Shown here in pieces: positions 24,593-29,521 of a DNA stretch of 45,549 nucleotides. Each line of letters opens with the position of its first letter. Within the stretch, counting starts at the first letter, position 1. Where the stretch lies: contig JAWXAT010000014.1 in assembly GCA_034439615.1 (NCBI GenBank), positions 1 through 45,549 on the forward strand, in the 5' to 3' direction. The notes beneath the pieces are model-generated. The model was not told where the DNA came from and did no database searches. It saw nothing but the letters and a program-made list of their open reading frames with translations. This stretch comes from Oligoflexia bacterium. GTDB lineage: Bacteria; Bdellovibrionota; Bdellovibrionia; JABDDW01. The translations under genes were made by a program, and so were the position numbers.

Positions 24593-25867
24593 CTAGTGAG
24601 AATTGATCCAGGTGGCGATTTTTTTACTCACCCCGGTTTGTGATTTGATAAAATCAGTGATCTCTGATTTTCTTTTTTCTACTTCATTTGAATTTAATTT
24701 TGTTTCATTCATCAAGATTGATTCTAATTCAAATGAATCATCCACGACGCGGGCAAAGCCTTTTGTTTTTAAAGACAATGCTTCGCGATTGTTGTGGTGG
24801 TAGGGGCCAATAATAATAAGATTACCGCAAGCTGCGGGCTCCATCACACTATGTACAGACTTTTTAAAACTACCACCTACGAATGAAATCTGAGCTATTT
24901 TGTACAAATCAGCTAAAACTCCCACGACATCAACTAAAATAACTGGTGAGCTCGCTAAAGTTTTGCTGTCTGCCTTTTCAAGAGTATCGTTAAGTTTTGA
25001 GTAATATACAAATTCAAATCCTAATTTTGTGAGCTGAATTTCAAGATCTTTGAGATGTTGTTGTGTGGGCTCATGGGGTGCTATTAAAACTTTTAAGCCT
25101 AAGGTGACAGGTTTAATGAGTGCGGGAATAAGAATTTTTTCATCTTGGGGCCATGTACTTCCAGCTACGAAAATCGGAGTGTTTGGAGTTTGTGTTGATG
25201 ATAAATTTTTTATCGGTCGATTTTCTTGAAGTCGAAAAAGAACTTGATCAAAACGGGTGTCGCCATCAATTGAAATTTTTATATCTGGATCAAGGCGAAG
25301 AAAATTACTTTTATCTTCTTCAGCTACACATGAAACATAAGTTAAATCTTCAACGATGCGACCATAGAGTAAGCGCCCCCAAAAACTTGCAGCACGACCA
25401 CTATGACTTGGCAATGTTGCGGAAAACAAGATGCTGGGAATATTTTTCTTTTTTGTCTGCCAAATCATATTGGGCCAAGTGTCTGTACGTGCGATTGCTA
25501 AAACTTTTGGTTGATAGTGATTTAAAAACTCATTCCAGTGCCATGGTGTATCCCATGGCATGGGTACAAATAAATCTATCTCAGGAGTTTTTTCTAAAGC
25601 TTTCATCACTGATGGAGAAAAATAAGTTACTAAAATCTTATGAGTACTTATTTTTTTAAGTTCTCTAAGAACAGGCTTTGCGTATTCGAGCTCTCCACTG
25701 GCGACGTGAAACCATATCCACGATGTTGTTTCATCGCGAGGTTGGATCCAGCTTTTATGTTTTCTAATTTTTAAACCCAATTTTACTTTTTCATTCTTAA
25801 AGCTTAGGAGCCAGAATAAGAAATAGACCAAAGGATAAAGTATAAATGTGTAGATCGTTTGAATCAT
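24593..25867 (-). CDS. waaA: 3-deoxy-D-manno-octulosonic acid (Kdo) transferase-like WaaA
   Basis: 424 residues. An N-terminal membrane anchor (about 1-20) precedes a GT-B fold: WIWFHVASGELEYAKPVL, SILFSATLPSHS, and a C-terminal ISFVGGSFKKSVHSVMEPAACG, which is the nucleotide-sugar site. The enzyme adds Kdo to lipid A on the inner face of the membrane. Compared with E. coli, the SVGE and ETELWPN motifs appear here as ASGE and RTDTWPN, so it is a divergent member. It overlaps the upstream GT9 gene by four bases (ATGA). It is convergent with the patatin-like gene. Confidence 0.85.
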   Translation of the reverse strand: MIQTIYTFILYPLVYFLFWLLSFKNEKVKLGLKIRKHKSWIQPRDETTSWIWFHVASGELEYAKPVLRELKKISTHKILVTYFSPSVMKALEKTPEIDLFVPMPWDTPWHWNEFLNHYQPKVLAIARTDTWPNMIWQTKKKNIPSILFSATLPSHSGRAASFWGRLLYGRIVEDLTYVSCVAEEDKSNFLRLDPDIKISIDGDTRFDQVLFRLQENRPIKNLSSTQTPNTPIFVAGSTWPQDEKILIPALIKPVTLGLKVLIAPHEPTQQHLKDLEIQLTKLGFEFVYYSKLNDTLEKADSKTLASSPVILVDVVGVLADLYKIAQISFVGGSFKKSVHSVMEPAACGNLIIIGPYHHNNREALSLKTKGFARVVDDSFELESILMNETKLNSNEVEKRKSEITDFIKSQTGVSKKIATWINSH

Positions 25868-26877
25868 GAGGTTTCCAAAATGGTTTTAAGTTCCTCTAAC
25901 ACCATTTCAGGTGTGATAAGTTTCATGCATTTTTGATATGTGGGGTTAACGCAGGGGCCAGACCCATCTTTTGAACAGGGTTGACACCAAAGTTGTGTCT
26001 GAAGTGCTTTACTTGTTTTTCGATAAGGGTGGCCAAAGGGGGTGGGGCCTAAAATGCCGACAACATTTTTTTGAAGACATTCGGCCATATGCAAAATTCC
26101 TGTGTCAGCGGCGACTAGTGTGTGACAAAGTGAAACGGCAGCGGCACTTTCAAGTAAAGTGAGTTTACCTTGAAGTGATAATACCCGTTGTTGATTAATG
26201 ATAAGGTCTTTGCAAAACCCGTCTTTTGGGCCACCTAATATAAGAACATTGTAATCAGTAAGTTTTAAAATCTTCGTAACGACTACTTTCCAATAATCTA
26301 AAGGCCACGTTTTTTTTGCCCAAGCTGTTGCTGGGGCGATGGCGATCCAGGGTTTTCCTTCCCATGCAATTTGCTGTTTTACTTTTGTGAGAATCCCTGG
26401 GGCAAGATGAAGTTCAGGGCCTTTATCGTCAATCATAATACCCCACCGTGCAAGTGGTGACAGGTAACTATCAACGGCACGATAGCGCTTACCAAAAAGA
26501 TTTATTTTAAAAACAAAGAGTAAAAATCTTTTAATACGACTTTTAGATCGCCTTAAAAAAAACTTCGGCCTCAAATAAAAACTTAATATATGAGATCTTA
26601 AATTATTATGTGCATCATAGACATGTGTGTAGCCAGCATCTGCAAGTATTTTTGACTGCGCAAGCCAACCTTTAAAACCAAGAGCACGCTCAAATGAAAT
26701 TACGCGTGAAACATAAGGGTTGTAAGCTACGAGTTCACGATTATCAGATCTGACGAGCCAATGAATCTCAGCGCGGGGAAATTTTTTGCGCAAATGTCTT
26801 GGTATTGCTGAGCATTGAATGATGTCTCCAATACTTGAGAGTCTGATGATGAGAATTTTCTCTGTTGTTGTGCTCAT
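25864..26877 (-). CDS. Glycosyltransferase family 9 (heptosyltransferase-like)
   Basis: 337 residues. ILIIRLSSIGDIIQCSAIPRHL at 8-29 is the GT9 N-terminal signature, and LVAADTGILHMAECL with GILGPTPFGHPYR forms the C-terminal donor site. Members add heptose to the LPS inner core (WaaC/WaaF/WaaQ), and the coupling to waaA supports this. Which position it glycosylates cannot be told. The upstream side has no clear ribosome-binding site and opens onto a 526-base intergenic region. Confidence 0.88.
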   Translation of the reverse strand: MSTTTEKILIIRLSSIGDIIQCSAIPRHLRKKFPRAEIHWLVRSDNRELVAYNPYVSRVISFERALGFKGWLAQSKILADAGYTHVYDAHNNLRSHILSFYLRPKFFLRRSKSRIKRFLLFVFKINLFGKRYRAVDSYLSPLARWGIMIDDKGPELHLAPGILTKVKQQIAWEGKPWIAIAPATAWAKKTWPLDYWKVVVTKILKLTDYNVLILGGPKDGFCKDLIINQQRVLSLQGKLTLLESAAAVSLCHTLVAADTGILHMAECLQKNVVGILGPTPFGHPYRKTSKALQTQLWCQPCSKDGSGPCVNPTYQKCMKLITPEMVLEELKTILETS

Positions 26878-27178
26878 GTTTTTGAGCTTAGCTTGAAATA
26901 TTGATTAGATCCAGAAAACCAGACATGCCCATATCATTGATGCAAAAGCGCCAGCGCGTGAGTCTTCGCAACTAACCATGAGCAGAGGTGAAATGAGAAT
27001 CGCTAAAGTAGTCATGTAGTCTTAATTGAGCAAGAAGTAGTCCTTTTGGAAAATGGCTTAAGTGATTGAAATAACAGTGATTAAGAAATGCTAGGGGTAT
27101 CTATCAATTCGACAAAGAGACGATTTTTGTAGCTTCACAGTGGGTCTCCGGCTGTGGTCTCCGGTTATGTGGAAGTTG

Positions 27179-27275
27179 GCAAAACTTGATTTGAATCATA
27201 ATGTACTTCATTTTCTTAAGTCAGAATTCATCACCCTATAGAGTTGGGCATCTATTAGATGCCTAACTCTATAGG
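27179..27275. repeat. Palindromic element, copy 1
   Basis: It begins with a 22-base sequence that recurs exactly at 27643-27664 (it contains AAAACTTGATTTGAATCATA). It ends with a near-perfect palindrome: left arm CCTATAGAGTTGGGCATCTA (27235-27254) and right arm TAGATGCCTAACTCTATAGG (27256-27275) differ by one G-T pair. No T-tract follows, so it is not a standard terminator. It looks like a small REP- or MITE-like element. Confidence 0.7.
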
Positions 27276-27366
27276 TGTAATCTTGTGGTACTCATTTCGC
27301 TTTGTATTTCGAAACAAACATCGGTCAGATACTATTTGATTCTTGATCGATTGGCATAAGTGGTAT

Positions 27367-27393
27367 TACCATTTTCATAGTCTGAAAATGGTA
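27367..27393 (+). promoter_or_regulatory. Hairpin touching the ribosome-binding site of the small secreted gene
   Basis: Arms TACCATTTTCA (27367-27377) and TGAAAATGGTA (27383-27393) pair perfectly over 11 bases around the loop TAGTC. The next bases, GGAGG (27394-27398), are the Shine-Dalgarno sequence, five bases before the ATG. The placement suggests an mRNA leader hairpin or a DNA operator; it leaves the Shine-Dalgarno sequence itself unpaired. Confidence 0.6.
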
Positions 27394-27403
27394 GGAGGAT
27401 CAA

Positions 27404-27619
27404 ATGTTGAAGATAACTCTTTGTGGTCTAATTATGGTTTTAATGGTGGCAGGTCTGGCATATGCCGATAATGATGAGGTTCTTGTTGATACCAAAAAGG
27501 ACAATACCGAAGCTACTAAACAAATAGACAAGGATATTAAAGAGTCTACGAGGCAAAAGGTAAGCCATGATAAGAAAACTAAAAAAGTGAAATTGAAAAA
27601 ACCTTCAGAAAATAAATAG
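27404..27619 (+). CDS. Small secreted lysine-rich protein, unknown
   Basis: 71 residues with a perfect AGGAGG ribosome-binding site. A signal peptide of about 21 residues (MLKITLCGLIMVLMVAGLAYA) would release a mature peptide of about 50 residues that is very hydrophilic: acidic first (DNDEVLVDTKKDN), then strongly basic (KKTKKVKLKKPSENK). No Cys remains after cleavage. I recognise no family. It stands alone between two related palindromic elements, with an adjacent 5' hairpin. Confidence 0.7.
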   Translation: MLKITLCGLIMVLMVAGLAYADNDEVLVDTKKDNTEATKQIDKDIKESTRQKVSHDKKTKKVKLKKPSENK

Positions 27620-27642
27620 CCAGTAAACCACTATAATGAGTA

Positions 27643-27719
27643 GCAAAACTTGATTTGAATCATATGCACTTCATACCCTATGAAGTTAGGCATCTAATAG
27701 AAGCCTTGACTCATACGTT
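27643..27719. repeat. Palindromic element, copy 2 (degenerate)
   Basis: It starts with the same 22 bases as copy 1 (27643-27664), then ACTTCAT, then a decayed version of the palindrome containing GTTAGGCATCTA and GAAGCC. The copies flank the small secreted gene in direct orientation about 460 bases apart. It ends within the last bases before the convergent oxidoreductase gene. Confidence 0.65.
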
Positions 27720-28373
27720 TCACAAAAATGACGCTAACTCTTGGTTTTCATAAACTTGTAAGCCCAAAACTGGTTTTTGGGCGGCTGTAATCATTGCCTT
27801 TGCGACTTTTTCACCTTCAATGGGGCTCCATTTTTTAAGGGGGCCTTTAAAAAACGGACCTAAAAATTTTAAAGATTTGATGGCGGCCTTTTCTCCCAAT
27901 CTCAAATCTTCTCGGTCTCCTAAAAGTAATGAGGGTCTAAAAATATGAATACATTCATAAGCGAGTTTACCAAGGGCTAGTTCAAGATCTCCTTTAACGC
28001 GTGAATAAAAAACAGGTGAAACTGCATTAGCACCTAGGGATGAAACTATGAGAAATTGTTTTGCGCCATTTTTGAGCATGATTTCAGCAAGTTTCAAATT
28101 ATAACTAAAGTCGATTTTATAGAACTCCACTTTACTCCCTGCTTTTTTAATAGTGGTGCCAAGGCATGAGAAAACATCGTCGGCACTAATGCCTGAGAGA
28201 ATCTCTAAGTTATCGAAGCTCGTTTTTATGACTTTAAGTTTTGGGTGTTTGAATGAAAGATCTTTGCGCGTAACAGCAATTACTCTGTCGTAATATTCAG
28301 ATTTTAAAAGAAGATTGAGGCAATTTTGGCCTACAAGGCCCGTGGATCCTGCAATTAAAGCTGTTTTACTCAT
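27720..28373 (-). CDS. NAD(P)-binding Rossmann oxidoreductase (TIP30/YfcH-like)
   Basis: 217 residues with AGGGG before the ATG. ALIAGSTGLVGQNCLNLLL carries the GxxGxxG dinucleotide motif (Gly9, Gly12, Gly15). SCLGTT and FLIVSSLGANAVSPVFYSRVKGDLE follow, with a YxxxK catalytic pattern, as in atypical short-chain dehydrogenases of the TIP30/HTATIP2 type. Substrate unknown. It stands alone, divergent from the purine operon. Confidence 0.8.
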   Translation of the reverse strand: MSKTALIAGSTGLVGQNCLNLLLKSEYYDRVIAVTRKDLSFKHPKLKVIKTSFDNLEILSGISADDVFSCLGTTIKKAGSKVEFYKIDFSYNLKLAEIMLKNGAKQFLIVSSLGANAVSPVFYSRVKGDLELALGKLAYECIHIFRPSLLLGDREDLRLGEKAAIKSLKFLGPFFKGPLKKWSPIEGEKVAKAMITAAQKPVLGLQVYENQELASFL

Positions 28374-28460
28374 TGTCGGCCCCTCACAATTTCTAAGTCA
28401 CTTTTACTTCTCATAAATGTTCAAAGAAATCTCTTAAATAGTTGGAATCGCAAGAATTGA

Positions 28461-28478
28461 ATGTTACTTAAATAACAT
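28461..28478. promoter_or_regulatory. 18-bp palindrome upstream of purM
   Basis: ATGTTACTTAAATAACAT is symmetric at all but one base pair and ends 26 bases before the purM ATG. Its size and place fit a dimeric repressor site over the promoter of the purine operon. It may overlap a TTGAAT-17-TATTTC promoter. No regulator gene is nearby, and AT-rich DNA gives such palindromes by chance. Confidence 0.35.
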
Positions 28479-28504
28479 CTATTTCATGAGCTATTTCTTT
28501 TTAA

Positions 28505-29521
28505 ATGGAGATTGTTAAGGCTGTGGGAACTGTCATTGACTACAAGTCAAGTGGAGTTGACGTTGAAGCCGGTGACAAGCTTGTGGATTGGATCAAAGCT
28601 CAGCCTCCAACGGGTGCTTATAAAAACATTCGCGGTGGAATTGGTGGCTTCTCAGCGCTCTTCAAACTTGATCTCACAAAATATAAAAATCCATTACTCG
28701 TTTCATGTACTGATGGCGTTGGCACCAAGGTCAAATTAGCAGTTGAGCTTAATTGTATCGAACCCACAGGCATTGATCTTGTAGCTATGTGTGTCAATGA
28801 CATGATCACCTGTGGTGCAGATCCGCTTTTTTTTCTCGATTATTATGCTTCAGGAAAACTTCAATTAAGCCAAGCTCAAGCACTTCTAAAAGGTATTATG
28901 GAGGGCTTAAAACAAAGTGACTGCACACTCGTTGGCGGTGAAACTGCAGAAATGCCCGGTGTATATGCAAAAGATGATTATGACTGTGCGGGTTTTTCAG
29001 TAGGAGTTGTTGACGAAGATAAAGTTATCGATGGAAAAAATTTAAATATCGGTGATGTAGCTATCGGAATTTCTTCAAGTGGTTTTCATTCTAATGGGTT
29101 TTCATTATTGCGAAAACTTTATGAAAAAGATTTTAAAGAACATGCAAACGTACTTATGACTCCTACAAGAATATATGTTGGTCTTGTTAAAACATTAAAA
29201 GAAAAAATAAAAATCAAAGCAATGGCTCACATTACAGGAGGCGGTGTTTTAGGAAATGTACCTAGAGTCATGCAAGAATTCACAGCACTTAAAACTCAAC
29301 GTTGGCCATGGCCAGATACTTTTGCTGAAGTTCAAAGGCGAAGTGGTTTAAGTGCTAAACAAATGCTTGAAACTCTTAACTGCGGTATTGGGTATGTGAT
29401 TTTTGTTTCAACGCAAGATGCAAAAACTGTGATTGAAGAATCTGAAAAACTTGGCTGGAGTGCATGGAATATTGGCTCAATTGTGAAACACTTGAAAGCT
29501 GAGCCCGAGGTGTTGATATGA
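28505..29521 (+). CDS. purM: Phosphoribosylformylglycinamidine cyclo-ligase
   Basis: 338 residues. YKSSGVDVEAGDKLV is the N-terminal signature, CTDGVGTKVKLA binds ATP, and VGGETAEMPG and HITGGGVLGNVPR are conserved downstream. It closes the imidazole ring to form AIR in step 5 of purine synthesis. The start ATG has no ribosome-binding site; a GTG at 28523 is an alternative. First gene of the purine operon, overlapping purN by ATGA. Confidence 0.95.
   Translation: MEIVKAVGTVIDYKSSGVDVEAGDKLVDWIKAQPPTGAYKNIRGGIGGFSALFKLDLTKYKNPLLVSCTDGVGTKVKLAVELNCIEPTGIDLVAMCVNDMITCGADPLFFLDYYASGKLQLSQAQALLKGIMEGLKQSDCTLVGGETAEMPGVYAKDDYDCAGFSVGVVDEDKVIDGKNLNIGDVAIGISSSGFHSNGFSLLRKLYEKDFKEHANVLMTPTRIYVGLVKTLKEKIKIKAMAHITGGGVLGNVPRVMQEFTALKTQRWPWPDTFAEVQRRSGLSAKQMLETLNCGIGYVIFVSTQDAKTVIEESEKLGWSAWNIGSIVKHLKAEPEVLI

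Follow-up and report, generated by a model that had tools for sequence, protein, structure and literature searches.

The window, a 45,549-nucleotide stretch of an Oligoflexia bacterium genome analysed here as a whole, carries two repeat features that are best explained, with a probability of about 0.6, as partly decayed copies of a genome-restricted, mobile-like repeat that accompanies small accessory genes. This repeat, termed E, forms a dispersed family in its host genome and recurs in pairs around single small genes or toxin-antitoxin (TA) pairs. In the window, the two copies enclose a 71-amino-acid open reading frame (71-aa ORF) within a variable interval bounded by a heptosyltransferase gene and purM:

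25864..26877, minus strand: glycosyltransferase family 9 (heptosyltransferase) gene, bounding the variable interval on the left
27177..27346, plus strand: element copy 1, approximately E 15-203 (DNA similarity and covariance model)
27179..27200, plus strand: first exact 22-mer, lying within the left end of E (exact-match search and shuffles)
27232..27277, no strand assigned: central palindrome of copy 1, core arms 27235-27254 / 27256-27275
27367..27393, plus strand: 11-bp hairpin abutting the AGGAGG of the 71-aa ORF, separate from E (z -5.2)
27404..27619, plus strand: 71-aa ORF, the bracketed cargo, between the copies and in the same orientation
~27629..27718, plus strand: element copy 2, approximately E 1-46 joined to E 95-126 (DNA similarity)
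27643..27664, plus strand: second exact 22-mer (exact-match search and shuffles)
27720..28373, minus strand: NAD-dependent epimerase/NAD(P)-binding family gene, convergent with the cargo
28505..29521, plus strand: purM (AIR synthase) gene, bounding the variable interval on the right

The 22-mer GCAAAACTTGATTTGAATCATA lies on the same strand at both of its positions and occurs at no further position in the window, even with 3 mismatches allowed; 100 dinucleotide shuffles of the window yielded 0 matches to it. This shuffle test, together with the further genomic copies described below, rules out a chance origin of the repeat. The 22-mer and the adjacent palindrome are two pieces of one longer repeat, E, which spans ~200 bp. 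Copy 1 lacks the left 14 nt and has a 25-nt internal deletion between two ACTTCAT repeats. It is 86-94% identical over 120-148 bp to the copies at C62, C32, C31, C17, C2 and C10, and it matches the covariance model with an E-value of 2.5e-33, copy 1 itself being among the 7 sequences used for the model. Its palindrome (27235-27275) has 20-nt arms that are 95% complementary, the highest complementarity among the 6 inverted-repeat pairs detected in the window at the settings used, and as single-stranded DNA it folds with -17.9 kcal/mol versus -3.6 for shuffles (z -8.4). Copy 2 has a larger internal deletion and is missing its 3' part; it begins 9 nt past the stop codon of the 71-aa ORF and finishes 1 nt short of the convergent gene's stop. 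Of its palindrome, only the left arm and the loop remain (~27675-27706; z -2.9). A first-pass annotation of the window had described an exact 22-base repeat, a palindrome of about 40 bases that is intact in the first copy and decayed in the second, and a 71-residue gene bracketed in direct orientation, and each of these descriptions holds.

The 71-aa ORF has an AGGAGG 5 nt ahead of its ATG, and its N-terminus resembles a signal peptide by eye. The protein has no match in a Pfam search or in a plasmid search. Its two NCBIfam matches, both far under the cut-off, and its weak partial matches in 5 of 39 relatives (E-value 0.005-0.08, all within longer frames) are taken as noise. The hairpin at 27367-27393 is a perfect 11-bp structure placed at the ribosome-binding site of this ORF, where translational control is possible; its exact motif was present in 10 of 175 loci, all 10 fetched around the same window place.

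Copies of E were sought in the whole host genome (3,001,738 bases, 70 contigs) with a DNA search seeded with the window region, with a covariance model built from 7 E copies and with a local sensitive search. Together these searches identify 18 E units at 14 loci, so the elsewhere-in-genome search proposed in the first-pass annotation does return further copies. Two units each lie at C62, C31, the window (C14) and C10 near 6 kb, and one each at C32, C17, C2, C10 near 57 kb, C46, C22, C20, C34, C61 and C8. The loci are dispersed across at least 13 contigs, several of them amid housekeeping genes. Three copies (C62, C32 and C31) are full-length, share 89-93% mutual identity and reside in differing gene contexts; the remaining units are shortened or have lost internal sequence. 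The left end of E (CACTAG...) is CACTAGATTGAATAGC, common to five copies with one variant in copy 2, and the right end is about AACTATTT, common to seven; the sequences flanking these ends are unrelated between copies. Internally, E contains a small hairpin (AAGTCC...GGACTT) and a large central palindrome (AGTTAGGC...GCCTAACT), and the C62 copy has a third small hairpin at its right end. The copies at C20 (L023:2375-2540) and C22 (L018 around 2469-2606) share a different left flank, CTAGTCAAA..., and possibly represent a second E subfamily.

Several matches were excluded from this count: a 36-bp match (86%) at C3:122821-122856 that lies inside coding sequence by eye, the opposite-strand palindrome matches, which are the same copies, a C34 match with an E-value of 0.48, and a half-match on C33 beside an HNH gene 3' end (model E-value 0.11; blastn E-value 2.4e-4). 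By blastn, the uncounted C33 half-match is as strong as the counted partner at C10. The C33 stretch L115:2056-2192, downstream of the HNH gene end, carries a diverged sequence resembling the right end of E (TTTCGAAACAAACAACAGTCA) and may be an older E fragment.

The reach of E appears to be narrow. A search of 143 genomes of the class recovered E from the host genome alone (up to about 5 first-look candidates scored per genome), and a separate search of 40 genomes, including its own, again found it in one. The exact hairpin motif of E has no match in a genome contig collection, a slightly shorter hairpin motif and two further E motifs have none in viral contigs, and blastn with E returns none in plasmids or phages; the host genome was possibly left out of these searches. 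The host is probably a member of the Bdellovibrionales group: in the genome contig collection its PurM has its best match in a Bdellovibrionales MAG (54% identity), and the top 8 of 26 loci listed come from MAGs of Bdellovibrionales type. In the literature found, judged on titles and abstracts, E is undescribed.

A recurring pairing is the feature of E that bears most directly on the 71-aa ORF. In a sensitive blastn search of the 14 loci with 7 E copies as queries, a second E, less complete than the first and always in direct orientation, was detected at four loci at a distance of 231-637 bp; the other 10 hold a single E and no partner was found there. At every paired locus the gap between the copies is filled by one small gene or TA pair, and the order along the element strand is the same: fuller E, cargo, less complete E and then a convergent gene, met at its 3' end. 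Two of the cargoes run in the same direction as E and two run against it. In the window, the cargo is the 71-aa ORF and the convergent neighbour is the epimerase-like gene. At C62, a 72-aa ORF with no Pfam, NCBIfam or phage match lies between E and a 72% identical partner (E-value 1.4e-7), which the covariance model also matches in the whole genome with an E-value of 0.38, and a 152-aa ORF is convergent. At C31, the cargo is a DUF4160 protein, with a DhiT-toxin match under the cut-off, next to an antitoxin that matches CopG and BrnA, likewise under the cut-off; the convergent neighbour is a DUF2177 gene. At C10 near 6 kb, where the partner measures 31 bp (E-value 4e-4) and sucD is convergent, the cargo consists of a BrnT toxin with a match over the cut-off and an 85-aa ORF that has no family match and is regarded as BrnA because of where it lies.

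Random placement of 18 units on 3.0 Mb gave, over 100,000 trials, a mean of 0.10 pairs closer than 1 kb and a maximum of 3, a test that is generous because the C62 and C10 partners were sought near known copies only and did not reach an E-value of 0.001 or lower in whole-genome searches. When restricted to units found genome-wide, two pairs, one of them the window, remain among 16 units, and the probability of at least two is about 0.002. Were the genome to hold 60 fragments rather than 18, four chance pairs would have a probability of about 0.03. In control blastn searches, 20 random 6-kb stretches (120 kb) gave 0 matches at an E-value of 4.1e-4 or lower, the strength of the weakest counted partner, and 1 at 0.5 or lower; 79 kb of HNH and Y1 loci gave 1 match at 4.1e-4 or lower, the C33 half-match.

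The two window copies were probably derived independently of each other, as judged from their sequence similarities. The hairpin stretch of copy 2 is identical to C17 (32/32) and C62 (31/31) and matches copy 1 at 27/32 positions. Copy 1, in its left part, agrees fully with C62 (31/31) and at 29/31 positions with copy 2. The left part of copy 2 is non-discriminating (43/46 to C31b, 31/33 to copy 1). An in-place tandem duplication is thus disfavoured, as each window copy has a stretch (the hairpin in copy 2, the left part in copy 1) that is identical to E elsewhere in the genome and differs from the other window copy.

All 18 E units are intergenic, overlapping ORF 3' ends by at most 18 nt, if two short unvalidated ORFs beside C20 and C8 are set aside. 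In 13 of the 18, the ORF next upstream is on the same strand and ends at E (from an 18-nt overlap to 176 nt away), and the other 5 are arranged differently; several units occupy convergent gaps almost exactly. Four of the five copies with an intact left end have the stop codon of a same-strand ORF 9-17 nt upstream. TA modules also occur in this neighbourhood. Four lie within 1 kb of E at the 14 loci (31.0 kb, 36 small ORFs): a nucleotidyltransferase-HEPN module (C32), the DUF4160 protein with its antitoxin (C31), and modules of the BrnT type (C10) and the PIN/VapC type (C10 near 57 kb). This count leaves out single antitoxin-like ORFs at C31 and C32 (the latter HigA-like) and a weak "mobile mystery A" match at C34. 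The matches of a padloc scan, most of them of regulator type, are likewise left aside. A control set of 165.5 kb with 74 small ORFs (the 20 random 6-kb stretches and the window) contains two modules, a nucleotidyltransferase-HEPN pair and a Gp49 and HTH_3 pair, their pairing judged by family names. TA modules are therefore commoner near E than in the control (binomial p 0.007), in a post hoc comparison posed after the loci were known and with the window counted in both sets.

A multi-copy HNH gene is another neighbour of E. At C62 it stops 17 nt short of E, and the repeats of its leader are found downstream of E at both C2 and C20. Other ends of the gene and six further places with the leader repeats (C39, C23, C45, C33, C50 and C17) have no E match in the stretches fetched, and the idea that E is a leader or end of this gene was rejected on the leader repeats without E. 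The gene encodes a 356-aa HNH endonuclease at L010:3017-4087, and closely similar pieces (84-93% protein identity), each broken off at a contig end, occur on C46, C34, C33, C70, C12, C6, C19 and C2, with long leader repeats upstream (GCGAATATGTAAG... and similar). It looks like an amplified and possibly mobile gene that breaks the assembly.

The corresponding places in relatives bear on whether E and its cargo were inserted in the host's own lineage. In G001, a genome of the same family and another genus, the heptosyltransferase and purM genes are adjacent, about 151 bp apart, and the interval contains no E, no 71-aa gene and no epimerase gene, which is the empty place that the first-pass annotation had suggested looking for. 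That annotation had named two outcomes that would tell against it, a repeat confined to this spot and a gene present at the same place in all relatives without the elements; other copies exist in the genome, and gene and elements are both absent from this same-family genome. In G002, the interval holds two other ORFs, by eye a response regulator and a sensor kinase, and because of these other genes the spot is considered generally variable. A comparable picture is seen after sucD. The host genome has an E'-BrnTA-E segment there (L015:1884-2640), followed by different downstream genes, whereas G001 and G003 have ndk (by eye) and G002 has another gene and then ndk. The comparisons at the two places support an insertion in the host's own lineage, read at the level of gene order since the relatives include no genome of the same genus and G001-G003 are too distant for a base-level reading of an empty site; loss in the relatives may also account for the absence.

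The main rival to a unit composed of E and a gene has E landing separately from small accessory genes (TA pairs, HNH genes and ORFans) in the same permissive intervals, so that the 71-aa gene is not cargo at all. This is somewhat unlikely in our estimate. The other genes between heptosyltransferase and purM in G002 fit it, as does the gene after sucD, which differs between G002 and G001/G003. It is also consistent with the single E at 10 of 14 loci and with the HNH gene or its leaders adjoining E at C62, C2 and C20, yet not at the six other leader places. Independent landings, however, predict mixed orientations and gap contents, whereas all four pairs are direct, hold one small transcription unit in the gap and place the less complete copy at the convergent 3' end.

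Comparison with known element classes does not provide a ready name for E. Like miniature inverted-repeat elements (MITEs), all 18 units are short, non-coding, dispersed and intergenic. None of the three full copies has terminal inverted repeats above shuffles at 5% (first 60 nt against the reverse complement of the last 60), and none has an exact repeat of at least 5 nt at its edges, a target duplication that decay could hide. E as a MITE with classical ends was rejected on these two features. The 439-bp MITEs that flank class 1 integrons in Acinetobacter have 5-bp target repeats, and pairs of them are proposed to move genes by transposition or homologous recombination (PMC3934969). The paired E copies resemble them as two small non-coding elements that bracket genes, but differ in having no detectable terminal inverted repeats or target repeats and in carrying one small gene or TA pair in place of a class 1 integron.

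REP and BIME sequences are described as intergenic palindromes found mostly downstream of genes and in convergent gaps (PMC3733652, PMC2817692), settings that E shares with them, as it does the palindrome. Unlike REPs, which consist of a 20-40 bp palindrome and usually exceed 100 copies, E spans ~200 bp, has 18 units and shows no unpaired GTAG or CGTC tag at the hairpin base in the inspected alignment. The genome contains five matches to the Y1-type transposase (Y1_Tnp), four of them over the cut-off. RAYT genes are flanked by two inverted repeat copies, whereas none of these five places has E in the flanks fetched (model E-value up to 1; blastn E-value up to 4e-4). A REP/RAYT identity was rejected on size, low copy number, the missing tag and the Y1 places without E in the flanks fetched; the term "REP-like" used in the first-pass annotation is thus not supported in its strict sense. 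The REP-associated transposase that it had suggested looking for did not emerge among these five places. The Y1-transposase gene at C49, which is under the Pfam cut-off, has its own inverted repeats of ~66 bp (88%) at L070:1081-1146 and 1874-1938, a GTAAGGCCGTGCC-type sequence unlike E.

ERIC sequences also have a palindromic structure. They are mid-length intergenic repeats that can sit at gene 3' ends and number 30 copies in E. coli K-12 (PMC10969869). Judged by description, E is likewise a mid-length intergenic repeat with a central palindrome, but it was not found outside its own genome. Cargo-bracketing pairs, as seen for E, do not figure in the portion of PMC10969869 used here.

E loci further recall integron gene cassettes, with small genes or TA pairs next to a hairpin repeat within 9-17 nt of the stop, and could on this basis be attC sites in integrase-less cassette clusters (CALIN). 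Sites of the attC type carry a RYYYAAC box followed by a GTTRRRY box about 40-200 nt further on. The sequences GTTAGGC and GCCTAAC are both present in E and fit this consensus, but they occur in the reverse order, GTTAGGC first, and 11 nt apart. A correctly ordered RYYYAAC...GTTRRRY pair 40-200 nt apart is present at 0 of 6 E loci tested, on either strand. Unlike an integron array, E loci are also scattered across at least 13 contigs. The attC/CALIN explanation was rejected on box order and is regarded as extremely unlikely.

A further alternative is that E is mainly an RNA or 3'-UTR element, a transcript barrier or stabiliser between convergent genes that spread by selection for this role. 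The co-oriented upstream ORFs that end at E in 13 of 18 units and the almost filled convergent gaps are in keeping with such a role, and each strand of one full copy gives a better fold than shuffled sequence (z -2.9 and -3.8). Against it, no terminator-like site was detected in 26870-28510, and copies with half of the hairpin or none persist. Among 27 predicted pairs in E, 0 have changes on both sides, and therefore there is no sign that the structure is selected. Rfam gives 0 matches in the window at gathering scores, and at E-values up to 1 it gives tRNA only, away from E, in 5 of the 14 loci. A known structured RNA family was thus rejected on the absence of an Rfam match and of covariation, and an intrinsic terminator on its absence at the window copies; a mainly RNA-level role for E appears very unlikely.

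E therefore acts like a small non-autonomous interspersed repeat that is not classifiable as a MITE, REP or attC element, and it probably depends on other factors for movement. In the stretches read (70-contig assembly, ORFs part-scanned), no gene next to or between E copies was recognisable as a transposase; no transposase or recombinase could be tied to E, and no excision product was found. We infer that E moves or once moved, by factors acting in trans, and took the 71-aa gene along. The first-pass annotation had suggested that the gene was carried or captured by a small mobile element. This is plausible for E: the dispersed repeat and the bracketing at three other loci stand in its favour, and the missing transposase, excision product and target duplication stand against it.

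In the proposed mechanism, E would settle downstream of stop codons as a small non-autonomous mobile element. An E - small gene - E' segment would then, most likely, have been assembled and inserted between the heptosyltransferase gene and purM. Two routes could lead to this arrangement: the two E copies may act together as a composite, or an incoming unit of gene and E may use a resident E as homology. More speculatively, E may be the recombination site of an integrase-independent cassette system, in which a small gene or TA pair, together with a 200-nt hairpin element starting 9-17 nt past its stop, inserts singly or paired at chromosomal gene 3' ends, perhaps with a single-stranded hairpin as the intermediate; we consider this unlikely.

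Small hairpin repeats scattered through a genome are often regarded as inert debris. E is a genome-restricted family that brackets single small genes or TA pairs four times in one geometry, without MITE ends or attC boxes. If the E unit moves, it would provide a minimal means of shuttling single genes and addiction modules around the chromosome. If it does not, E would still mark the hypervariable 3' intergenic spots of this lineage.
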